Below, piece by piece: positions 13,764-23,582 of a stretch of 64,000 nt of DNA (position 1 is its first letter; each line of letters starts with the position of its first letter). This DNA comes from Zoogloea sp. (lineage in GTDB: Bacteria > Pseudomonadota > Gammaproteobacteria > Burkholderiales > Rhodocyclaceae). Below the pieces are notes generated by a model that searched no databases, was not told where the DNA came from, and saw only the letters and a program-made list of their open reading frames with translations. The stretch is taken from contig JADJBR010000007.1 of NCBI GenBank assembly GCA_016703645.1, positions 248,001 through 312,000 of the forward strand, read 5' to 3'. A program made the translations under genes and the position numbers.

Positions 13764-14483
13764 TCACCGGGTCAGCCGCTTCACCTCGCCGCCGCAACTC
13801 TCGGCCACCCGCGCGTATTCCTCGGGGGTGTCGATGAGCGCCTGGGCGGCGTCCACCTTGTTCATCTCCCGCCGGATATAGGGCGCCCAGCGTTCCTCCA
13901 GTTCCTGCTGGAGACGTGCGCGGGCCTGTCCGACGGGGCCGCGCCAGGGGCCGTCGGTGACGAAGCGGCGCTTCAGGGTGTCGGCAAGCTCCTGTTCAAT
14001 CCGCAGCAGATGCGCCTGGTAGGCACGAACGTGGCGGAGCTCATGCTCGTGGATCTCCTTGTAGGCACAGCTACCCGGTTGGAATTCCCTGGCCACGTAG
14101 ACCGTCATGGGGCTGAAACCGTAGGTCACGGTGAGCTGGGGGCTGGCGCATTCCCAGCGCCCGCCTGGGTCAGTGTAGGCCGTGATGCGGGACTCGAAGC
14201 GCACGGTGGCGGTGCCGCGGGTGAGCCCCAGAACCTGTTTGCCCGCCGGGAGGTTGCGCGGGCCGATCAGGGTGAGGGTGCGGTAGCTGCTGCGGGTATC
14301 CAGGGTGATGGGCTCTTCGTGGCGTTTCAGGGTCACCGAGGGGCTGGGGAGCTGGTCGCAGCGGTCGACAGCGTTTGCACCGGAGTTTGGGCCCAGGGCA
14401 ATGGCGACGGACGCCAGTACCGGCAGCTTGCACAGGCGTGCCCGGACGAAGACCGAGATGCTTCCGGGCGGTGCAGGGATCAT
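13764..14483 (-). CDS. secreted putative Zn-metalloprotease-like protein (DUF922-like)
   Basis: ATG 14483 overlaps the fisR stop codon (ATGA), so the two genes are translationally coupled. The 239-residue product has an N-terminal hydrophobic export segment (about residues 12-30, VRARLCKLPVLASVAIALG). It contains an HExxH zinc site, HELRH, within IHEHELRHVRAYQ, with an adjacent HEH. Four cysteines are likely disulfide-bonded in the periplasm. The pattern resembles the DUF922 family of putative secreted Zn proteases. Its role is unknown; coupling to fisR suggests periplasmic protein quality control or processing during sulfide stress, which is inference. Confidence 0.7.
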   Translation of the reverse strand: MIPAPPGSISVFVRARLCKLPVLASVAIALGPNSGANAVDRCDQLPSPSVTLKRHEEPITLDTRSSYRTLTLIGPRNLPAGKQVLGLTRGTATVRFESRITAYTDPGGRWECASPQLTVTYGFSPMTVYVAREFQPGSCAYKEIHEHELRHVRAYQAHLLRIEQELADTLKRRFVTDGPWRGPVGQARARLQQELEERWAPYIRREMNKVDAAQALIDTPEEYARVAESCGGEVKRLTR

Positions 14484-15820
14484 CACAGGTTCTTGAGCCG
14501 GCGGTACAAGGTCCGCTCGCTGAGGCCGAGCTTGGCGGCGAGGGCCTTGCGCGAACCCCGGTGGCTGCGCAGGGCGGCGGCCAGATCCACGTCGTCGGGT
14601 TCGGGCTGATCCGGCGAGCGCCCGGGAACAGGCGAGGTGGTGAGCATGGAGCCGGGCAGGGCGGGGGCCTGCGGATGATCCTCGGGATACTGCAGTTCCT
14701 CGGGCAGATGCCGCCGTTGCACCGTATCGCCATCGCACAGCAGGCTCGCCCGTTCCAGGATGTTGCGCAGCTCCCGGATGTTGCCCGGGTAGGTGTGGGT
14801 GCGCAGGCAGGCCAGGGTGTCGGCGGCAATGCGCAGCTTGCGGTCCGGTGCGACGCGCTCCAGCAGCGCTGCCGCCAGCAAGGGGATGTCGTCCTGACGT
14901 TGGCGCAGGGGCGGGAGACAGATCGGGAAGGCGTTGATGCGGTAGTACAGATCCTGGCGGAACTGGCCCTTCTCAACCAGGCTCTTCAGGGGGCGGTGGG
15001 TGGCGGAGATCAGGCGGATGTCGGCGCGCATGAGCTCCGTGCTGCCCACCCGTCGATAGGTGCCGGTCTCCAGCAGGCGCAGCAGCTTGACCTGCATGCT
15101 CAGGGGGATGTCGCCCATCTCGTCGAGAAACAGGGTGCCGCCGCTGGCGGCCTCGACCAACCCGGTCTTGCGGATACTGGCACCCGTGAAGGCCCCGCGC
15201 TCATGGCCGAAGAGTTCGCTTTCGAACAGGGTTTCGGTGAGGCCGGAGCAATCCACGGCGACAAAAGGCCCCTCCCGGCGTCGGCTGGCGTCATGGATGG
15301 CCTGGGCGACGAGCTCCTTGCCGGTGCCCGATTCGCCCTGCAGCAGCACCGTGGCCTCCGACGGGGCGACCCGTGCCACCAACTCTAGCATGGCCCGGAA
15401 GGCGGGAGCCCGACCGATCAGACCCTGGGCGCCAGCCAGTCCGCGGGACACGGGCAGGGGTTCGAGCTTCTCGATGAAGTAGGCGATCTCCCCGGTGCTG
15501 TCGCGGATGGGTGACAGCTCGATATTCTCGTAGCTCTCGCCCGTCGAGGTGTGATGCAGGTGCACCACCCGCTCACGTTGCCCCGATTTCAGGCTATGGG
15601 CCAGCGGGCAGGATTCGCCGGCCTGGTCGCAGGGCACCGGATAGTGATGGGACACCTCGAAGCACTTGCGCCCGATCAGATCGTCCGGTCGCCCGCAGTT
15701 GGCCCGATAGGCGGCATTGGCGGCCAGGATGCGGTAACTGCGGTCACACAGGATGTGCGGCTCGGGCAGGGTCTCCAGGAAGGAGACCAGTTCGGGCAGG
15801 GGGTGGAGTCGGTTCGACAT
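14483..15820 (-). CDS. fisR: FisR-type sulfane-sulfur-responsive sigma-54 activator
   Basis: Start chosen at ATG 15820 ([10 protein letters not shown]), not 15859, because this places cysteines exactly at positions 53, 64 and 71 (GRKC53[11 protein letters not shown]64DQAGESC71). Those are the numbering and spacing reported for persulfide-sensing FisR of Cupriavidus pinatubonensis. 445 residues: N-terminal PAS-like sensory domain (about 10-120); AAA+ domain with Walker A GESGTGKE (162-169), GAFTGA (209-214, sigma-54 contact) and Walker [13 protein letters not shown]-terminal Fis-type HTH ([19 protein letters not shown]). Known FisR activates sqr/pdo genes with sigma-54 when polysulfide modifies the cysteines. 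Here it is divergent from cydPABX. Family assignment is strong; its targets are inferred from promoter motifs. Confidence 0.9.
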
Positions 15821-15831
15821 GGGGGAGGGGC

Positions 15832-15895
15832 TGGCAGTTTTGCTGCCAAATACTGCCATGGCGGTGTGTGGCGGTCAAACCGGCATTCCTGGCAG
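15832..15895. promoter_or_regulatory. CTGCCA/TGGCAG repeat cluster, candidate FisR enhancer
   Basis: TGGCAG at 15832-15837 and 15890-15895, CTGCCA at 15843-15848 and 15853-15858. TGGCAG and the first CTGCCA form an inverted repeat with a 5-bp loop. The cluster lies 60-125 bp upstream of the sigma-54-like promoter of cydP and overlaps the fisR 5' region, as expected for an enhancer plus autoregulation. The same hexamers recur at 21767-21846 before the Rieske operon. Confidence 0.55.
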
Positions 15896-15954
15896 TCACG
15901 CAAGTTGTGGGGCAAGGCATTGGGCGAAAAAGAATTTCTCTGAGAATTCAGGAG

Positions 15955-15970
15955 TGGCACGGCTCTTGAT
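15955..15970 (+). promoter_or_regulatory. sigma-54-type promoter of cydPABX
   Basis: TGGCACG-gctc-TTGAT. The -24 element is a perfect TGGCACG and spacing to the -12 element is correct (GG-N10-G). The -12 element reads TTGAT instead of TTGCW, a deviation in a well-conserved base. Identical elements precede the Rieske operon (21899-21914). The start codon of cydP lies 36 bp downstream. Confidence 0.65.
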
Positions 15971-15984
15971 TAGCAATGACTGAT
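15969..15984. promoter_or_regulatory. palindromic motif, copy 1
   Basis: ATTAGC-AATG-ACTGAT, overlapping the -12 element and probable start site of the cyd promoter. It matches ATNAGC-N4-RCTNAT, also found at 19096-19111 (inverted orientation) and 21913-21928. It may be an operator for a second regulator; the binding protein is unknown. Confidence 0.5.
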
Positions 15985-16006
15985 ATTTCATCGGACTGCC
16001 AGAACC

Positions 16007-16189
16007 GTGACCCCATCCGACTCTCTCCTGCGACGCCACCTGGGCTGGGTGGTCGCCATCAAATTGATGGCCCTGCTTCTGCTGTGGTGGTTCTTCGTGC
16101 GCGACAAGGGCACGCAGCTTGATCCGGCTGCGCTGTCCAGGCAGTTCGCCCCCAACCCCGTCGTCCAAGGAGCCCCCCATGGTCAGTGA
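16007..16189 (+). CDS. cydP: cytochrome bd oxidase small subunit, CydP family
   Basis: A 60-residue protein from GTG 16007 whose last codons overlap the start of cydA by 11 bp, implying coupled translation. It has one membrane helix ([19 protein letters not shown]) preceded by basic LLRRH and followed by RDKGTQLDP. This is the pattern of the small proteins annotated as putative bd-oxidase subunit CydP, which lie directly before cydA in many proteobacteria. It is the first gene after the sigma-54-like promoter. No Shine-Dalgarno sequence is obvious. The role is inferred from position and family resemblance. Confidence 0.75.
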
Positions 16190-17732
16190 ACAACTGGTCG
16201 ACCTCTCCCGGCTGCAGTTTGCCGCCACCGCCCTATACCACTTTTTGTTTGTTCCCCTGACCATCGGCATGGTGTGGATGCTGGTGATCATGGAGTCGGT
16301 GTATGTGATGACCGGCAAGCCCCTCTACAAGGACATGACCCGCTTCTGGGGCAAGCTCTTCGGCATCAACTTTGCCCTGGGTGTCACCACCGGCATCACC
16401 CTGGAGTTCCAGTTCGGCACCAACTGGGCCTACTACTCCCACTACGTGGGGGACATCTTTGGTGCGCCGCTGGCCATCGAAGGGCTGATGGCCTTCTTCC
16501 TCGAATCGACCATGATCGGCCTGTTCTTCTTTGGCTGGGATCGCCTGTCGCGCCGGCAACACCTGCTGGTGACGGTGCTGATGGCGGTGGGGACCAACCT
16601 GTCGGCCCTGTGGATCCTGATTGCCAATGGCTGGATGCAGAACCCGGTGGGCGCCGAGTTCAGCTACGTGACCATGCGCATGGAGATGACCGACTTCTGG
16701 GCCGTGGTCTTCAATCCGGACGCCCAGGCCAAGTTCGTGCATACGGTGTCTGCCGGCTATGTCACCGGTGCCATGTTCGTGCTGTCGATCTCGTCCTGGT
16801 ACCTGCTGCGTCGTCGCGACGTGGAATTTGCCAAGCGCAGTTTCGGCATCGCCGCCGCCTTCGGCTTTGCGTCCGTGTGCTCGGTGATCGTCCTCGGCGA
16901 CGAATCGGGCTACACGGTGGGCGAGGCCCAGCAGACCAAGCTGGCCGCCATGGAGGCCATGTGGGAGACCGAACCGGCCCCCGCACCCTTCAATCTCATC
17001 GCCATCCCCAACGAAGCGGAAATGAAGAACGACTTCGCCATCGAGATTCCCTGGGTGATGGGGATCATCGGCACCCGCTCCCTGGACAAGCAGATTCCCG
17101 GCATCAAGGAGATCAAGGCAAAGAACCGGGAGCGCATCGTTTCCGGTATCGAGGCGGTGACGGCCCTTGATGCCTTGCGCCGCGACCAGAATGACGAAGC
17201 CGCCCGCCGCGAATTCGAGGAGCACAAGGCGGACCTGGGCTTTGGTCTGCTGCTGAAGAAGTACGTCAGCCATTTCGACCAGCTCACGCCCGAGATCATC
17301 GAGAAGGCCGTGAATGACACCGTTCCCCGCGTCGCGCCGATGTTCTGGAGCTTCCGCCTGATGGTGGCCCTGGGCTTTGCGATGCTGCTGCTCTTCGGCC
17401 TGGCCCTGTGGCATTCGGTGAAAGGCGACTTTGCCGACAAGCCCTGGTTGCTGCGTGCAGCCCTGTATTCCCTGCCCATGCCGTGGATCGCCTGCGAGGT
17501 CGGCTGGTTCGTGGCGGAGTACGGGCGCCAGCCCTGGACCATCTACGGCGTATTGCCCACCCATCTCTCCGTCTCCACCCTCAGTGTGGAGAGCCTTTAC
17601 GGCTCCCTGGCCGGATTCGTTGGCTTCTACACCGTGCTGCTGGTGGTCGAGATGTACCTGATGATCAAGTTTGCCAAGCAGGGCCCGGGCAGCCTGGGCA
17701 CCGGCCGCTACGCCAACGAGGCCCACGCCTGA
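16179..17732 (+). CDS. cydA: cytochrome bd ubiquinol oxidase subunit I
   Basis: ATG 16179 has AGGAG in place; 517 residues. CydA carries heme b558, b595 and d and oxidises quinol while reducing O2 to water without proton pumping. Visible family features: [19 protein letters not shown] with the axial His at residue 21; helices with [22 protein letters not shown] and [38 protein letters not shown] near the C-terminus; and an extended periplasmic Q-loop (about 250-385), as in the E. coli-type long enzyme. bd oxidases tolerate sulfide better than heme-copper oxidases, which fits control by FisR. Confidence 0.97.
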
Positions 17733-17748
17733 ACCGAGGACACGCAAA

Positions 17749-18888
17749 ATGCTCGACTATGAATCCCTCAAACTGATCTGGTGGCTGCTCGTCGGCGTGC
17801 TGCTGGTGGGCTTCGCCATCATGGATGGCCACGACATGGGTGTTGGCACGCTGCTGCCCTTTGTCGGCAAGGACGACACCGAGAGGCGGGTGGTCATCAA
17901 CACGGTCGGCCCCCACTGGGACGGCAACCAGGTGTGGTTCATTACCGGCGGCGGCGCCATCTTTGCCGCCTGGCCGCTGGTCTATGCCACCGCCTTCTCG
18001 GGTTTCTACTGGGCCATGCTGGCTGTGCTGTGGGCCCTGTTCTTCCGCCCGGTGGGGTTTGATTACCGCAGCAAGATCAGCAACCCCACCTGGCGCAAGA
18101 CCTGGGACTGGGGCCTGTTCATCGGCGGGGCGGTGCCGCCGCTGATCTTCGGGGTGGCCTTCGGCAACCTCTTCCAGGGCGTACCGTTCAGCTTCGACGA
18201 CCACCTGGTGTCCACCTACTCCGGCAGTTTCTGGGCCTTGCTCAACCCCTTTGCACTGCTCTGCGGGGTCGTGTCCACGGCCATGATCACCTTCCATGGC
18301 GCCATCTACCTGGTGCACCGTACCCAGGGCGAGATCCAGTGGCGGGCACTGCGGGCGGCCGGTTTCTTTGGCGGGCTCATGGTATTGAGCTTTGTCGCGG
18401 CGGGCGTCTGGTTGTGGATGGGGATTCCCGGCTATGTCATCCAGTCGGCGGTGGAGGGCGGGGCGCTGCCCAACCCCCTGGCCAAGACAGTGGTGAGGGA
18501 GGCGGGTGCCTGGTTCGCCAACTATCGGGCCTACCCCGCGACGTTGCTTCTGCCTGCCCTTGGCATCGTGGGTGTGTTTGCTGCCCAGGCGCTCGCGCGT
18601 TCGGGCCGCAGCATGGCGGCTTTCTGGGCATCGGCGCTGGCCATTGTTGGCGTCATCGGTACCGCTGGCGCAGCCCTGTTCCCCTTCATCATGCCCTCGT
18701 CCCTCGACCCGCGCGCCAGCCTGACGGTGTGGGACAGCGTCTCCAGTCGGCTGACCCTCAACATCATGCTGTGGGCCACGTTGATCTTCATGCCGATCAT
18801 CATCCTGTACACAAGCTGGGCCTACCGGGTGATGGGGGGCAAGGTCACCGCCGCCTACGTGCGCGAGAACAGCCATTCGGCCTATTAG
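17749..18888 (+). CDS. cydB: cytochrome bd ubiquinol oxidase subunit II
   Basis: 379 residues from ATG 17749, 16 bp after cydA. CydB is the structural, heme-free partner. Its opening MLDYESLKLIWWLLVGVLLVG and GFAIMDGHDMGVGTLLPFVGK are characteristic. The pattern GPHWDGNQVWFITGGGAIFAAWP and a C-terminal SLTVWDSVSSRLTLNIM are also typical. Eight to nine membrane segments can be counted. The gene is followed by cydX after 24 bp. The normal assembly ABC transporter genes cydDC are not in this window. Confidence 0.97.
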   Translation: MLDYESLKLIWWLLVGVLLVGFAIMDGHDMGVGTLLPFVGKDDTERRVVINTVGPHWDGNQVWFITGGGAIFAAWPLVYATAFSGFYWAMLAVLWALFFRPVGFDYRSKISNPTWRKTWDWGLFIGGAVPPLIFGVAFGNLFQGVPFSFDDHLVSTYSGSFWALLNPFALLCGVVSTAMITFHGAIYLVHRTQGEIQWRALRAAGFFGGLMVLSFVAAGVWLWMGIPGYVIQSAVEGGALPNPLAKTVVREAGAWFANYRAYPATLLLPALGIVGVFAAQALARSGRSMAAFWASALAIVGVIGTAGAALFPFIMPSSLDPRASLTVWDSVSSRLTLNIMLWATLIFMPIIILYTSWAYRVMGGKVTAAYVRENSHSAY

Positions 18889-18912
18889 TCGGCTTACCAA
18901 GGAGTCAACAAC

Positions 18913-19047
18913 ATGTGGTATTTCACCTGGGTTCTGGGCATCGGCTTTGCCGTCTTCCTGGCCATTCTCAATGCACTGTGGGCCGAGCATGAGGCAAGCC
19001 GTCAATCCCTGCCTCGCGGCAGGCAGGGCGACAATCCGCCTTCCTGA
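18913..19047 (+). CDS. cydX: cytochrome bd oxidase small subunit CydX
   Basis: A 44-residue open frame at ATG 18913 with GGAG upstream. The sequence opens MWYFTWVLGIGFAVFLAI and continues LNALWAEHE, the diagnostic single-helix CydX (YbgT) pattern including the conserved W and E after the helix. CydX is needed for stability and full activity of CydAB. The tail after residue 27 is hydrophilic and somewhat longer than in E. coli CydX (37 residues). With cydP, cydA and cydB it forms a complete four-subunit operon. Confidence 0.93.
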   Translation: MWYFTWVLGIGFAVFLAILNALWAEHEASRQSLPRGRQGDNPPS

Positions 19048-19095
19048 TGATTCATTGAGGGCCGGCTCGCGGGAAGCGTCGAAGGGTGGGATTAA

Positions 19096-19111
19096 ATCAG
19101 TATCTGCTAAT
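19096..19111. promoter_or_regulatory. palindromic motif, copy 2
   Basis: ATCAGT-ATCT-GCTAAT; read on the minus strand it is ATTAGC-AGAT-ACTGAT, matching copy 1 except for three of the four central bases. It sits 16-31 bp before the ybgE start. No sigma-54-like elements accompany this copy. Confidence 0.45.
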
Positions 19112-19126
19112 ATTTAAGGGGCGTCT

Positions 19127-19432
19127 GTGAACATGGCATTCCGGGAATTACCTGAACCCCCTGGCGAGCAGAGTCCCGGGAGGATGCATCTGCCGAGTCT
19201 GGCAGCCGCCATGCTGATCATGCTGGCGGGCTCGCTCTACCCGCTCTTGTTCACCCGTGCGGATGCCCGGGTCGATCACGGATTGGCGATGGCCTTGTTC
19301 ATGGCCATGAGCGCGGGGTTCGTCCGTGGTGTGGGCTTCATCCCTGCTGCGCCCTTATGGCGCTGGCTGTTTTCGGGTTGGGCCTGTTTGCTGGCGCTGC
19401 TCCTTGCGGCCACCCTCAAGTTCCTTCATTGA
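19127..19432 (+). CDS. ybgE: cyd operon YbgE-family membrane protein
   Basis: 101 residues from GTG 19127, which has AAGGGG six bases upstream; ATG 19133 is an alternative. There are three hydrophobic segments (LAAAMLIMLAGSLYPLLF, HGLAMALFMAMSAGFVRG, WACLLALLLAATLKFL). The central AMSAGFVRGVGFIP matches the conserved W/A-x-x-AGxxxGxGF core of YbgE, a small protein usually encoded next to cydX. Its function is unknown but linked to the bd oxidase. An 80-bp gap from cydX with a copy of the palindromic motif suggests separate control. Confidence 0.75.
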   Translation: MNMAFRELPEPPGEQSPGRMHLPSLAAAMLIMLAGSLYPLLFTRADARVDHGLAMALFMAMSAGFVRGVGFIPAAPLWRWLFSGWACLLALLLAATLKFLH

Positions 19433-19511
19433 GCCTGGCAGTCAGGTGGCAAGGCCGACTTGGCGAGGGGCGCCTGAGATCCGGGCGCATTTATCGAGAT
19501 AGGGAGTGCGT

Positions 19512-20003
19512 ATGAGATTCAAGGCTTTGCTGTTGTCGCGCGTGGCGGGAGGCCTTCTTGCCCTGGTGTTGTCCCTGGCCGCTGATGCGGCGCCCATCCT
19601 TCCCGGGGGCGTACTTCCGGCGTTGGCGCTTGAGGATCAGCACGGCAGGACGGTGTCCACTTCCGCGAACACCCGTCTTGTCCTGTTTGCGGCGGACAAG
19701 GCCGCCAGCGACCTGATCAACGAGGTGCTGGCCGCCCGGCCCGCCGGGGTTCTTGAGGGGCTGGGCGCTGTCTACTTCGCGGACATCAGCGCAATGCCGG
19801 CCCTGGTTACGCGAATGTTCGCCCTGCCTGCACTGCGGGAGATGCCCTTCGCGGTCGGGCTCGGGCGGGAGGCCGGTCAGTTGGCTGATCTGCCTCGCCA
19901 GAAAGGGGCTGCAACCATCGTCAGACTGGTCGACGGAAAGGTCGCCTCCATCGAATATGCCCGCAATGTCGGCCAGCTGATGCAGGCCATCGGGCTCAAA
20001 TGA
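19512..20003 (+). CDS. secreted thioredoxin-fold-like protein without CXXC
   Basis: 163 residues from ATG 19512, with AGGGAG just upstream. An N-terminal signal peptide is clear (RFKALLLSRVAGGLLALVLS, cleavage near ADAA-P). The mature part starts GGVLPALALEDQHGRTVS, reminiscent of the opening of AhpC/YtfJ-type thioredoxin-fold proteins (xLPxLxLxDQHG). A VLFAADKAASDLI strand-helix follows where the CXXC would be, but no cysteines are present. It is therefore probably not a redox enzyme. The stop overlaps upstream sequence of the rhodanese gene, so the two are likely co-transcribed. Function unknown. Confidence 0.65.
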   Translation: MRFKALLLSRVAGGLLALVLSLAADAAPILPGGVLPALALEDQHGRTVSTSANTRLVLFAADKAASDLINEVLAARPAGVLEGLGAVYFADISAMPALVTRMFALPALREMPFAVGLGREAGQLADLPRQKGAATIVRLVDGKVASIEYARNVGQLMQAIGLK

Positions 20004-20023
20004 ACCCCTCAGGGAGAGAGATG

Positions 20024-20572
20024 ATGAAAAATCTGATCATTGCCGTTTCGTTGGGCCTGCTGGGTATTTCGGCACAGGCGGTTGATATTGCCGTTCCTGC
20101 GACCGACGTTCATGCGCGGCTACAGCAGGCCGATCAGAAGATGCTGTTTGTGGATGTGCGTGATCCGGTCGAGATCATGTTTGTCGGCTTCACGGATGCC
20201 GTCCATGTGAACGTGCCTTTCCTGATGGTGGACCGTAGCGCCTGGGATGAGCGGCGCGGGGTGTACAGGCTGACCCAGAACCCGGACTTTGTCAGGCAGA
20301 TCAAGGCAGAGCTGGAGAAGCGTGGCCTGGACATGGAGGCCGAGGTGATCACCCTGTGCCGTTCGGGCAGCGAGCGGGGGGAGCCCAGTGCCGCCTTCCT
20401 CCGGGACAATGGTTTTCCTAACGCCCGCTACGTTATCAATGGCTTCCAGGGCTCGGCCATCAAGGACGGCCCCCAGGCGGGTTTTCGTCTGGTTAACGGC
20501 TGGCAGAACAGCGGCCTGCCCTGGGGCATGAAGATGAATCCGGCCAAGATGTACCGCGTCGACAACAAGTAA
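20024..20572 (+). CDS. periplasmic rhodanese-like sulfurtransferase
   Basis: Start chosen at ATG 20024 (MKNLIIAVSLGLLGISAQA), seven bases after AGGGAG; an upstream ATG at 20000 overlaps the previous stop and 20021 is also possible. The signal peptide predicts export. The 182-residue product has a single rhodanese domain: LFVDVRDPVEIMFVG (CH2A-like), the active-site loop LCRSGSERG with the catalytic Cys, and GFPNARYVINGFQG. Rhodaneses move sulfane sulfur, for example between persulfide, sulfite and thiosulfate. In this island it probably handles sulfane sulfur in the periplasm; the substrate is inferred. Confidence 0.85.
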   Translation: MKNLIIAVSLGLLGISAQAVDIAVPATDVHARLQQADQKMLFVDVRDPVEIMFVGFTDAVHVNVPFLMVDRSAWDERRGVYRLTQNPDFVRQIKAELEKRGLDMEAEVITLCRSGSERGEPSAAFLRDNGFPNARYVINGFQGSAIKDGPQAGFRLVNGWQNSGLPWGMKMNPAKMYRVDNK

Positions 20573-20723
20573 CGACACGCATTGCCCTCGCAGTTCGTGT
20601 CCGTCTGATGGCGTGGTGTGTCCGGTGTCCGGGGCGGTATTCCGACCCCCATGGGGTGGGATTGCCACCCGGACGCAGGCGGGGCCATGCCATCATGCAT
20701 CTGAATCCTGACCCCACGTAAAC

Positions 20724-21716
20724 ATGAACCCCACGCCCATCGCCCCAAGCGCGCCTGACGTACATCATGAGACGTCTATCGCCCATTTTCCGGTTGCTCT
20801 CTTCTCCACGGTGATGGGGATCGCCGGGCTTGCCCTCGCCTGGCAGAAGGCTGCCCATGTGCTCGGTTGGTCTGGACTTGTGGGCCAGGGCCTTGCCGTG
20901 CTCGCCGGCCTGGTGTTCCTCGTGGTGGCAGGCTTCTATGGGGCCAAGCTGCTTCGCCACTGGGCTGCTGCGCGGGCCGAAGCAGCGCATCCGGTGAAGA
21001 TGAACTTCGTTCCCGCCATTTCCATCGGCATCCTGTTGCTGGCAACGGCCTGGGGCCGGATGGCACCGGAGGTGGCGAGCTGGATGTGGGGCCTTGGTGC
21101 AGCACTGCATCTGGTGTTCACCTTGCGGACCATGAGTGCCTGGATCCACCACACCCATTTCGAGATCCAGCACCTCAACCCGGCCTGGTTCATCCCGGTG
21201 GTGGGCAACATCATCGTCCCCCTGGCGGGCGTCCGGTTTGCGCCCGCGGAGGTGTCGTGGTTCTTCTTCAGCATCGGGCTGGTGTTCTGGATCGTGCTGT
21301 TCGCGATCGTGATGTATCGCCTGTTCTTTCACGCCCCACTGGCCCTGCGCCTCACCCCCACGCTGTTCATCCTGCTTGCACCGCCCTCCGTCGGCTTCGT
21401 TGCCTACACCGGCCTTTCCGGCGGCCTCGATGCCTTTGGGCGGGTGCTGTATTACACGGCCCTGTTCCTGGGCTTGCTCTTCGCAAGCAACGCGCTGCGC
21501 TTCTTCCGGGTTCCGTTCTTCGTATCGGCCTGGGCATACTCGTTTCCACTGGCAGCGCTGACTGTTGCCACGCTGACAATGGCCGAACTGAGCGGGCTGC
21601 CCGCTTTTCGCCTCCTGGGGGCGGCACTGGTGCTGACCACCAGCGGCGTGATCGCCCTGCTTGGGGCGCTCACGGTCCGTGCTGCGCTGCGCGGCGAGAT
21701 CTGCCGGGCCGAGTAG
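20724..21716 (+). CDS. TDT/SLAC1-family anion transporter
   Basis: 330 residues with about ten membrane helices. It matches the tellurite-resistance/dicarboxylate transporter (TDT, TehA/SLAC1) fold: SIAHFPVALFSTVMGIAGLALAW near the start is the family signature (HFPVxxFxxVMGxxGL), NPAWFIPVVGNIIVPLAG is the central conserved stretch, and later helices repeat the pattern. Members carry small anions, and yeast SSU1 of this family exports sulfite. Here it lies between a rhodanese and a Rieske/persulfide dioxygenase operon, so sulfite or thiosulfate export is a reasonable inference. It begins 151 bp after the rhodanese. Confidence 0.85.
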   Translation: MNPTPIAPSAPDVHHETSIAHFPVALFSTVMGIAGLALAWQKAAHVLGWSGLVGQGLAVLAGLVFLVVAGFYGAKLLRHWAAARAEAAHPVKMNFVPAISIGILLLATAWGRMAPEVASWMWGLGAALHLVFTLRTMSAWIHHTHFEIQHLNPAWFIPVVGNIIVPLAGVRFAPAEVSWFFFSIGLVFWIVLFAIVMYRLFFHAPLALRLTPTLFILLAPPSVGFVAYTGLSGGLDAFGRVLYYTALFLGLLFASNALRFFRVPFFVSAWAYSFPLAALTVATLTMAELSGLPAFRLLGAALVLTTSGVIALLGALTVRAALRGEICRAE

Positions 21717-21766
21717 GGGGCGGTCTCGGCAAGCGGTCAGGTTATGCCATTGGGGGCGATGACGGG

Positions 21767-21846
21767 CTGCCATGACTGCCAGATGTCCGACAGGCTGCTG
21801 CCAACATCGCTGCCACATTCGTGTCCGCCCGGGCATGCAGTGGCAG
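21767..21846. promoter_or_regulatory. CTGCCA repeat cluster, candidate FisR enhancer
   Basis: Four direct CTGCCA copies (21767-21772, 21776-21781, 21798-21803, 21810-21815) and one inverted TGGCAG (21841-21846), 53-132 bp before the sigma-54-like promoter of the Rieske operon. The hexamer set and placement match the cluster in the fisR/cydP intergenic region. Confidence 0.55.
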
Positions 21847-21898
21847 CTTGCAATTTCAGGTGCCTGAAGTAAAAGGGATTTCCCCTGAGCTGCAGTCC

Positions 21899-21914
21899 TG
21901 GCACGGGACTTGAT
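21899..21914 (+). promoter_or_regulatory. sigma-54-type promoter of the Rieske operon
   Basis: TGGCACG-ggac-TTGAT, identical to the cyd promoter in both elements (the same TTGAT at -12), with GG-N10-G spacing. The Rieske start codon is 59 bp downstream. Confidence 0.65.
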
Positions 21915-21928
21915 AAGCACTTGCTTAT
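21913..21928. promoter_or_regulatory. palindromic motif, copy 3
   Basis: ATAAGC-ACTT-GCTTAT; with the central bases it is a perfect ATAAGCA-CT-TGCTTAT palindrome. It overlaps the -12 element at the same relative position as copy 1. Confidence 0.5.
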
Positions 21929-21973
21929 ATTTGGTGTCCGACCCCGGCGCCCCAGTCCCCAGGAGAAGCCCCC

Positions 21974-22603
21974 ATGGCAAGCACCCCCGTTTCGGTTCTC
22001 GGAAACCCCAATACCCCGACCCCCTGCAACCCTGGCCGACGCCAGTTGCTGATTGCCACCGCCGGCGTGGGGGGCGTGCTGGCCGCGGCGGCGGCGGTAC
22101 CCTTCGTGGCCAGCCTCACCCCGTCCGAGCGGGCCATGGCCGCGGGCGCGCCGGTGGAGGTGGATATCGACAAGCTCGCGCCGGGTGAAATGATGGTGGT
22201 TGAATGGCGTGGCAAGCCGGTGTGGATTCTGCATCGCACCCCGGAGATGCTTGCCGCCCTCGCCAAGGCCGAGGGGGAGCTCGCCGATCCGGGCTCCGCG
22301 GTGGCGTCGCAGCAGCCGGAGTATGCCCACAACCCGCATCGCTCGCGGCGGCCGGAGATCTTCGTGGCGGTGGGGATCTGCACCCACCTGGGTTGTTCGC
22401 CTTCGTCGGCCTTCCAGCCCGGCAACCCCGCCATCGGAGCCGACTGGCGCGGCGGCTTCCTGTGCCCCTGCCATGGCTCCACCTTCGATCTCGCCGGCCG
22501 GGTCTTCAAGAACAAGCCCGCGCCCACCAACCTGGAAGTGCCGCCCTATATCTACCTGAGCGACGCGCGACTGCGCATTGGTGAAGACAATGGCCCTGCC
22601 TGA
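21974..22603 (+). CDS. petA: Rieske iron-sulfur protein, ubiquinol-cytochrome c reductase type, stand-alone
   Basis: 209 residues from ATG 21974 (AGGAG upstream). A twin-arginine-like start, GRRQLLIATAGVGGV, leads into one membrane anchor. The Rieske cluster motifs are CTHLGC (136-141) and CPCHGS (164-169), each giving one Cys and one His to the [2Fe-2S] centre, with the extra disulfide cysteines present. Spacing and the C-terminal PPYIYLSDARLRIG are those of bc1 complex subunits. Cytochrome b and c1 genes are not adjacent, so this is a single-gene paralogue or relocated copy. It is controlled by the same type of promoter as the bd oxidase. Confidence 0.92.
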   Translation: MASTPVSVLGNPNTPTPCNPGRRQLLIATAGVGGVLAAAAAVPFVASLTPSERAMAAGAPVEVDIDKLAPGEMMVVEWRGKPVWILHRTPEMLAALAKAEGELADPGSAVASQQPEYAHNPHRSRRPEIFVAVGICTHLGCSPSSAFQPGNPAIGADWRGGFLCPCHGSTFDLAGRVFKNKPAPTNLEVPPYIYLSDARLRIGEDNGPA

Positions 22604-22910
22604 TCACTCCTCTGCCGACGGCCGCGGTCAGGGTGGCGGTGGAGACGACGACACCGGTATCCGCATCCTGTCGGTGCTGACCGGCCTGGTGGTGGCGGGT
22701 CTGTTGATTTTTGCGCCACACGCGAGCCAGGACCGCTGGGGGGCGGCCGATCCCCTTGCCGCCCTCCTGCTGCTGTGGTCCATGGGCGCCGGTTTTGCCA
22801 GTGGCCTGGGCCTGGCTGCCCGGCTGCCCTCCGTCGCCCGGCTTCTCCTCTCCAGCCCTGCCTGCCTGGGAGCCCTCGTGCTCGCCGTGTTCCGGATTGC
22901 AGGTCATTGA
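22590..22910 (+). CDS. second YbgE-like small membrane protein
   Basis: 106 residues. ATG 22590 lies inside the end of the Rieske gene (14-bp overlap), consistent with coupled translation. After a hydrophilic Gly/Asp-rich N-terminus come three hydrophobic segments (LSVLTGLVVAGLLIFAP, PLAALLLLWSMGAGFASGLG, LLLSSPACLGALVLAVFRI). The central WSMGAGFASGLGL resembles the YbgE core, and segment lengths and order align with the protein at 19127-19432. I infer a diverged paralogue of the bd-oxidase-associated YbgE protein. Function is unknown. Confidence 0.6.
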   Translation: MALPDHSSADGRGQGGGGDDDTGIRILSVLTGLVVAGLLIFAPHASQDRWGAADPLAALLLLWSMGAGFASGLGLAARLPSVARLLLSSPACLGALVLAVFRIAGH

Positions 22911-22919
22911 AAGCCCGCC

Positions 22920-23582
22920 ATGTACTTTCGTCAGTTCTTCGAGCCTGATCAGGCGGCCATGAGCTACTTGCTGGGTGATCCCGTCAGTGGTCAGGCCGTG
23001 GCCATCGATCCACGCCCCGATCCCTGTCAGGTCTTGTTGTTGACTGCCTTGCTGGCTGAACGCCAGTTGGATCTCTGCCTGATCCTGCTCACTCACACTC
23101 ATGTGGACCGGGACGACCATCTGCCTGACCTCTATCCGGGGGCACAGGTGGTCGTCGGTGGAGGAGGGCGCCAGCCTGCGGGGCTGCGTACGGTTGTCCA
23201 TGGTGAGCGGCTGCTCATGGGTACGCAGGTCTTGCAGGTGATCGCCACCCCCGGCCACACGCCCTGCAGCGTCAGCTACTTGTGGCAGGACCGGATCTTC
23301 TGCGGTGACGCCCTGGAACTGGGGGGCTGCGGTCGGGTCGAGAGCGGGGAGTGCGATCCCGGACGCCTCTACGACTCGGTGATGAACCGGTTGTTCGTGC
23401 TGCCGGATGAAACGCTGGTGTTCCCCGGGCACGACTTTCATGGCCGCACGGTATCAACCATCGGGGAGGAAAGGCGGTGCAATCCCTTCTTTGCGGCGCG
23501 TTCGCGGGACGCCTTCCTCAGCCGCTACGCCATGAAGGGCGGCCCTGGCACGGTCGCGCGCCACGGGCGCGCCGAATCCTGA
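22920..23582 (+). CDS. ETHE1-type persulfide dioxygenase-like metallo-beta-lactamase protein
   Basis: 220 residues. The beta-lactamase fold has the three mononuclear-iron ligands of ETHE1/PDO: H59 (in THTHVDR), H113 (in ATPGHTPCS) and D130 (in FCGDALELGGCGRVE). The C-terminal pattern GECDPGRLYDSVMNRLFVLPD, VFPGHDF, GRTVSTIGEERRCNPFF is characteristic of PDO. The usual HxHxDH reads HTHVDR, so the second-metal His is Arg, compatible with a one-iron enzyme. PDO oxidises glutathione persulfide to sulfite with O2. It is the last gene of the Rieske operon. No sulfide:quinone reductase is in the window. Confidence 0.85.
   Translation: MYFRQFFEPDQAAMSYLLGDPVSGQAVAIDPRPDPCQVLLLTALLAERQLDLCLILLTHTHVDRDDHLPDLYPGAQVVVGGGGRQPAGLRTVVHGERLLMGTQVLQVIATPGHTPCSVSYLWQDRIFCGDALELGGCGRVESGECDPGRLYDSVMNRLFVLPDETLVFPGHDFHGRTVSTIGEERRCNPFFAARSRDAFLSRYAMKGGPGTVARHGRAES

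Follow-up and report, generated by a model that had tools for sequence, protein, structure and literature searches.

The 64-kb window analysed here (C7:248001-312000 of a 4.99-Mb Zoogloea genome of 4,987,483 bases) carries at 14483-23582 an island in which the gene of FisR, a sigma-54-dependent activator, lies next to the genes of a cytochrome bd oxidase (cydPABX) and of a second Rieske iron-sulfur protein. Conserved synteny, together with promoter-like sites and hexamer arrays shared by cydP and the Rieske gene, also where cydP lies away from fisR, makes it very probable that the island is one FisR/sigma-54 regulon with respiratory targets, retasked from sulfide detoxification and read as at least two transcription units. 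As a computational prediction of a conserved regulon, this wiring is strongly supported, and analogy with characterised FisR proteins supports sulfane sulfur as its signal. Sulfide-induced bd oxidase is already known in Acinetobacter baumannii; a FisR system with respiratory targets would be new. The sequence-only reading had proposed a single FisR regulon for these genes, and the comparisons below support it; every gene that it named was located in the island and confirmed with Pfam or NCBIfam, with one extra gene at 19512-20003. The top named matches of the FisR sensor are from Zoogloea, with 93% identity to Zoogloea sp. STD2_9. The features on which the argument rests are as follows.

14483..15820, minus strand: fisR, sigma-54-dependent activator, with a PAS_4 sensor bearing C53/C64/C71, an AAA+ domain with GAFTGA, and HTH_8
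15832..15895, no strand assigned: putative FisR upstream site, four CTGCCA/TGGCAG and two TGGCGG variants, 65-123 nt before the cydP promoter
15955..15970, plus strand: sigma-54 -24/-12-like promoter TGGCACGGCTCTTGAT, starting 52 nt before cydP
16007..16189, plus strand: cydP, small bd oxidase subunit (NF045611, 37.6 bits, cut-off 29.6)
16179..17732, plus strand: cydA, bd oxidase subunit I (PF01654, 595 bits; GRQPW present)
17749..18888, plus strand: cydB, bd oxidase subunit II (TIGR00203)
18913..19047, plus strand: cydX (TIGR02106)
21767..21846, no strand assigned: putative FisR upstream site, four CTGCCA and one TGGCAG, upstream of the Rieske promoter
21899..21914, plus strand: sigma-54 -24/-12-like promoter TGGCACGGGACTTGAT, starting 75 nt before the Rieske gene
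21974..22603, plus strand: second Rieske iron-sulfur protein, petA2-like (TIGR01416, 211 bits, cut-off 97.4)

Two near-identical sigma-54-type sites, TGGCACGG-N3-CTTGAT, stand upstream of cydPABX and of the second Rieske gene. In this genome the pattern TGGCACRNNNNTTGAT is matched at only two places, before cydP and before the Rieske gene, and its reversed control at none. Both sites lie downstream of an array of the hexamer CTGCCA/TGGCAG, and four such hexamers within 80 nt are found in the window only at these two promoter arrays. CTGCCA ranks first among 120 hexamer classes of the same composition, with three such 80-nt stretches, followed by CCTGCA with two. Of 49 regions upstream of fisR that have a TTGA-type site (from the window and from relatives, many of them close), 46 also contain the hexamer, where Markov shuffles led us to expect 6.9. 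In Cupriavidus metallidurans, fisR is divergent from PDO and SQR genes and has on its other side a gene that we take to be TauE-like; TGGCACGGGTTTTGAG precedes PDO and TGGCACGGAATTTGTA the latter gene, after arrays of four and five of the same hexamers. Since this locus shares with the window the promoter type, the arrays and an identical 10-letter stretch of the FisR helix-turn-helix (HTH), the array is likely the FisR operator; we know of no publication that describes it as such. As the array before cydP spans an alternative fisR start, it may also serve in autoregulation of fisR. The canonical PDO gene, two flavocytochrome c-type flavoprotein genes and the canonical petA have no FisR-type site with array in their flanks of about 1.5 kb. 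Consequently, the two strict sites of the genome would serve respiration and its helpers, and FisR appears not to control the canonical PDO or the sulfide dehydrogenase-like flavoproteins here.

The comparison within the genus covered 23 genomes (G000-G022), which share descent, so that the counts are not independent. A FisR sensor match was found in 18 of them, all with a cydA match; G006 has a truncated fisR copy. Two full Rieske matches are present in 17 of the 18 (G022 has only the island one), and the island Rieske gene is on the fisR contig in 16, that of G002 and G012 being on another, short contig. Four genomes (G001, G007, G013 and G021, the first 72% complete) have neither a fisR match or fragment nor cydA, and none of them has more than one full Rieske match; G006 (82% complete) has no cydA and two full Rieske matches. 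Missing co-occurrence in relatives had been set beforehand as grounds to abandon the idea; fisR, cydPABX and the second Rieske gene were instead found to travel together. In G017, G003, G020, G019 and G015, cydPABX lies on a different contig from fisR, at least 12 kb from the contig end; all five keep the site 45-52 nt before cydP, with at least three hexamers in the 170 nt upstream. The cydA contig of G014 ends before the promoter. In G002 and G012 site and array also precede the Rieske gene of the short contig, and in G006 that of the locus holding the fisR fragment (L196). Other cydAB loci (L190-L193, L197) and more distant cydA genes (L198, L199, L202) have no such site with array. Upstream of the cydPABX of G003 (L186, 693-1532) we also noted another sigma-54 activator, 43% identical to FisR.

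For counting, a strict site was defined as TGG[CT]A[CT][AG]N4TTGA[TC] at most 300 nt upstream of a gene. In the window and loci L031-L050 and L185-L196 it precedes 16/16 cydP and 14/17 Rieske genes, and none of the cydB (0/20), cydX (0/20), fisR (0/20), ybgE2 (0/15) or ETHE1-like or PDO genes (0/15); it precedes two of five 19512-20003-type genes and one of eight ybgE1. Shuffled upstream regions of cydP and the Rieske gene contained it in 6 of 22,600 cases. The looser pattern TGGCAYRNNNNTTGATNNG has at least one match in all 18 fisR-bearing Zoogloea genomes and none in G001, G007, G013 and G021, with no match of the reversed control in any; it is not specific in other families, as scattered matches occur in many genomes that have no fisR match.

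To look beyond the genus we used 80 fisR loci, the best among 581 relatives, with flanks of up to 10 kb per side; 16 count as Zoogloea and 64 as other. Gene-family clustering from simple open reading frame (ORF) calls gave noisy results, with ORFs called on the wrong strand of this GC-rich DNA, and only some clusters were taken further. Within 10 kb of fisR, a Rieske gene is present at 50 of the 80 loci, cydA at 43 and an ETHE1-like or PDO match (E up to 1e-3) at 36; with stricter cut-offs, the 64 non-Zoogloea loci have cydA in 30, Rieske in 36 and at least one of them in 46. Among these 64, three arrangements are commonest, at 10 loci each: cyd divergent and Rieske downstream of fisR; Rieske between cydB and cydX; and Rieske divergent, with no cydA. 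Next come cyd divergent with no Rieske at five loci, cyd following fisR in the same orientation at four, and Rieske downstream with no cydA at four. A looser site pattern, run without shuffle control, precedes 23 of the 30 cydA and 20 of the 26 Rieske genes outside the cyd operon. In one Rubrivivax metagenome-assembled genome (MAG; L124), the genes cydP-A-B-Rieske-X-ybgE-ETHE1-like-SQR-SQR run in one direction from fisR, and a FisR-linked Rieske gene is found in two Rubrivivax MAGs (L124, L137). On a replicon of Pseudoalteromonas xiamenensis (L208, 2475-7293), a FisR-like gene that carries the Cys motif diverges from cydP, cydA and cydB (annotated as one coding sequence), cydX and ybgE, with a variant site, TGGCATAGGACTTGTA, and a single hexamer. 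With this alteromonad locus, the FisR-cyd association extends past the betaproteobacterial lineages.

Several observations weigh against a single regulon of this kind. A triple-CTGCCA pattern has its sole match in the whole genome at the Rieske promoter, and its reversed control has two; because the control also matches, the array by itself is not significant genome-wide. The -12 half of both window sites (15966-15970 and 21910-21914) is TTGAT, where sigma-54 promoters usually have TTGC; most FisR-type sites listed in relatives likewise have TTGAT, C. metallidurans has TTGAG and TTGTA, and the shared non-standard element may set FisR-type promoters apart. In G016 the sole cydA is of another type (72%) and has no site. 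The three siteless Rieske genes of the strict count are those of L044, L045 and L049; the last belongs to another genus, and the first two, both of Zoogloea, do count against us, though they stand close behind cydX and transcription from the cyd promoter may reach them. Outside Zoogloea, 20 of 30 cydA have the strict site, and of the 26 Rieske genes that are not in the cyd operon only 6 do. Even a looser pattern finds no site in 23 of 81 regions upstream of fisR, and 18 of the 64 non-Zoogloea loci have neither cydA nor Rieske in reach. Lastly, the FisR of A. baumannii responds to sulfide though it lacks the conserved Cys, according to the excerpt of PMC7315123 consulted, so Cys chemistry is not the sole possible mode.

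The 18 loci with neither target would be expected if cydPABX and petA2 were mere neighbours of fisR, FisR controlled something else and the sites were leftovers of the region's shared ancestry. This is highly improbable: sites and arrays are kept at cydP far from fisR in five cases of five, the sites persist across different gene orders and orientations, and the genome has only two of them.

The FisR protein itself has the expected architecture, with 227 bits for the AAA+ sigma-54 interaction domain (PF00158) and 28.7 bits for the Fis-type HTH (PF02954). Its longest ORF starts at 15859 and M14 of that frame at 15820; translation more likely begins at M14, since the 13 codons before it overlap part of the upstream hexamer array. 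C53, C64 and C71, which had been placed at the exact positions of persulfide-sensing FisR, are indeed all present, under numbers that hold only from M14 (66/77/84 from the longest ORF). The three residues are kept in 82/82 fisR loci compared; two search patterns had found 80 of these loci and one included C64 and C71, so that only the conservation of C53 is unbiased there. We take C71 to be the third sensor Cys of the FisR of Cupriavidus pinatubonensis. In that protein, the tetrasulfide pair is formed by C53 and C64 (PMC8614764, in the part available to us). Two further observations concern the surroundings of fisR genes. One relative (L110) has four FisR-like matches within one 16-kb stretch. 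The gene adjoining fisR in the window (13764-14480) encodes a product with a HEHELRH motif and no NCBIfam match, which presumably resembles secreted metalloprotease-like DUF922 proteins.

The C. pinatubonensis JMP134 system (fisR-pdo-sqr) and that of the window share Cys 53/64 and an AAA+ sigma-54 activator. Unlike there, the predicted targets here are a bd oxidase and a Rieske protein, no sqr lies in the island, and the canonical PDO (C7:133761, with THIHADH) lies outside it without the promoter; the linked pdo-sqr operon of the classical FisR layout is thus absent, which concerns the operon and not the regulator. Two SQR-type queries of the genome returned only two flavocytochrome c sulfide dehydrogenase-like flavoproteins, other SQR types not having been queried. 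In A. baumannii, sulfide induces cydAB and FisR drives a pdo1-sqr-tauE operon; it shares with the window a FisR-driven sulfide response, here a predicted one, and, in its sulfide-raised cydAB, a likely output, and the part of that report at hand shows no FisR control of cydAB (PMC7315123). Among the literature matches listed (titles and beginnings of abstracts), none described cydAB, a Rieske gene or this island as being under the control of FisR.

Could the wiring be right and the signal be something other than sulfane sulfur, for instance a thiol-reactive or redox cue such as nitric oxide (NO), low O2 or a metal, with the bd oxidase as its natural output? Bd oxidases are also used in the presence of NO and at low O2, the two queries found no close SQR in the genome, and the A. 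baumannii FisR responds to sulfide without the conserved Cys (PMC7315123, in part). Set against this are the Cys residues conserved at all 82 loci (with the search bias on C64 and C71), the rhodanese and ETHE1-like genes within the island, and the sulfur genes near other fisR copies: octaheme tetrathionate-reductase-family cytochromes at 18/80 loci, two SQR types at 12/80 and 11/80, and, in Zoogloea ramigera (L065) and MAG-181 (L066), a canonical PDO as the next match after cydX, about 0.5 kb on, 62% and 59% identical to that of C. metallidurans. We consider a different signal quite unlikely, and retain sulfane sulfur.

The second Rieske protein has complete ligand motifs (CTHLGC and CPCHGS), an RR motif and a membrane anchor. 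The genome has two full TIGR01416 matches, and the other one stands directly before the only cytochrome b match (PF00033), as in petABC. The island Rieske protein is 59-72% identical to the 30 canonical PetA compared, and the alignment shows ligands, RR signal and anchor to be kept. A tree built from 49 island sequences and 30 canonical ones has one branch that splits the two sets (support 91/87, present in 92% of bootstrap trees); because of this split, moderately supported, the FisR-linked Rieske looks like one old family and not like recent duplicates. For Rubrivivax gelatinosus, several functionally redundant Rieske genes are reported (Ouchane 2005 as cited in PMC6256036, of which a part was at hand). 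As in the present genome, a second, stand-alone Rieske gene is found there beside that of the bc1 cluster. To our knowledge, nothing links that pair to FisR, sigma-54 or cyd. This analogy leads us to favour, as plausible, that the island Rieske swaps into bc1 as a subunit. Its position between cydB and cydX at 10/64 non-Zoogloea loci, and near fisR and cyd at many more, would suit a protein that acts outside bc1, either together with the bd oxidase or as a separate electron carrier. That role is unlikely given the 59-72% identity to canonical PetA, the retained RR signal, anchor and ligands, and the Rubrivivax redundancy (PMC6256036, in part).

CydA, CydB and CydX were all found with family scores, which identifies a bd quinol oxidase, and the island cydA is the sole PF01654 match in the genome. 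The remaining genes of the island are the following.

19127..19432, plus strand: YbgE-family protein 1 (PF09600)
19512..20003, plus strand: Cys-free protein of 164-165 amino acids with a signal-like N-terminus and a predicted thioredoxin/ResA-like fold
20000..20572, plus strand: rhodanese with a signal-like N-terminus (PF00581; active-site loop CRSGSERG)
20724..21716, plus strand: TDT/SLAC1-family anion carrier (PF03595)
22578..22910, plus strand: YbgE-family protein 2 (PF09600), overlapping the Rieske gene by 26 nt
22920..23582, plus strand: ETHE1/PDO-like protein, Fe triad H59/H113/D130, HxHxDR (HTHVDR) instead of HxHxDH

The two YbgE proteins score 65.4 and 34.4 bits (cut-off 25.2). The 19512-20003 product has no Pfam or NCBIfam match; its structure model (pLDDT 86.7) gave best Foldseek TM-scores of about 0.6, and by its position it may be a partner of the rhodanese. 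The TDT/SLAC1 carrier is possibly a sulfite exporter. Spacing is tight within cyd (cydP-A -11, cydA-B 16, cydB-X 24 nt), with 79 nt both from cydX to ybgE1 and from ybgE1 to the 19512-20003 gene, a 4-nt overlap of the latter with the rhodanese gene, and 151 nt from there to TDT; 257 nt, with their own promoter, separate TDT from the Rieske gene, and 9 nt ybgE2 from the ETHE1-like gene. In the window no site of their own was found for ybgE1, the 19512-20003 gene, rhodanese and TDT. In Zoogloea sp. 1C4 (L063), the 19512-20003-type, rhodanese and TDT genes are divergent from fisR and such a site lies in between, and a third one, TGGCACGATGATTGAT, precedes ybgE1 in STD2_9 (L058), so that the middle genes seem part of the regulon in some relatives.

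The ETHE1-like protein had been called a persulfide dioxygenase. Its ETHE1/PDO match and retained Fe triad agree with this; the protein is divergent, its HxHxDH is incomplete, and PDO-like is as far as the name should go. It matches PDB 4ysb, 4chl and 9rhq with E-values of 1e-43, 2e-31 and 2e-49, and H59/H113/D130, placed by alignment, are presumably its Fe ligands. The triad is whole in 32/39 aligned proteins; seven in which it is incomplete (L064, L090, L106, L109, L121, L124 and L137) argue against every copy being fully active. HxHxDH has lost its DH pair in 35/39, including the window's; the other four are canonical PDOs, from L065, L066, L126 and C. metallidurans. This FisR-linked family is a natural test of whether DH matters for persulfide dioxygenases.

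FNR/Anr control of the window's cyd promoter was rejected, since no TTGAT-N4-ATCAA with up to two mismatches lies upstream of cydP or of the Rieske gene. Perfect boxes occur in 5/58 site-bearing upstream regions, one of Azoarcus and four of Thauera (L078, L088, L093, L101, L104), between fisR and the divergent site, near the FisR-type site. Joint oxygen and sulfur control is possible in Thauera and Azoarcus, and FNR may add a layer in some lineages.

Taken together, we propose the following course of events. Sulfane sulfur made from sulfide would modify C53 and C64, as the Cupriavidus protein suggests; FisR would bind the CTGCCA/TGGCAG arrays some 60-130 nt upstream and drive sigma-54 polymerase at the TGGCACGG-N3-CTTGAT promoters of two predicted units, cydPABX-ybgE-(thioredoxin-like)-rhodanese-TDT and petA2-ybgE2-ETHE1-like. 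Judging from the protein families, the cell would thereby gain a sulfide-tolerant bd quinol oxidase, an alternative Rieske subunit able to take the place of the canonical one in its single bc1 complex, and sulfane-sulfur handling proteins alongside. Other bd oxidases are described as insensitive to sulfide (PMC7315123 and PMC8148161, in the parts at hand). In its boldest form, put forward tentatively and with more doubt than confidence, the proposal is that sulfane sulfur simultaneously rewires both respiratory branches through FisR, acting on the bd oxidase and on a dedicated Rieske protein that is exchanged into bc1 (or, where its gene lies between cydB and cydX, binds to the bd oxidase). 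The quinol-oxidising machinery would thus take on a sulfur-stress form, in a system widespread in Rhodocyclales, with a FisR-cyd form in Pseudoalteromonas.

If true, this would explain continued respiration under sulfide in Zoogloea, Thauera, Azonexus, Dechloromonas and Accumulibacter, which are sludge and denitrifying groups. It would also supply a candidate regulator of the bd oxidase that sulfide induces, none being named for A. baumannii in the part of PMC7315123 consulted, and would give the second Rieske genes of betaproteobacteria a possible condition of use.

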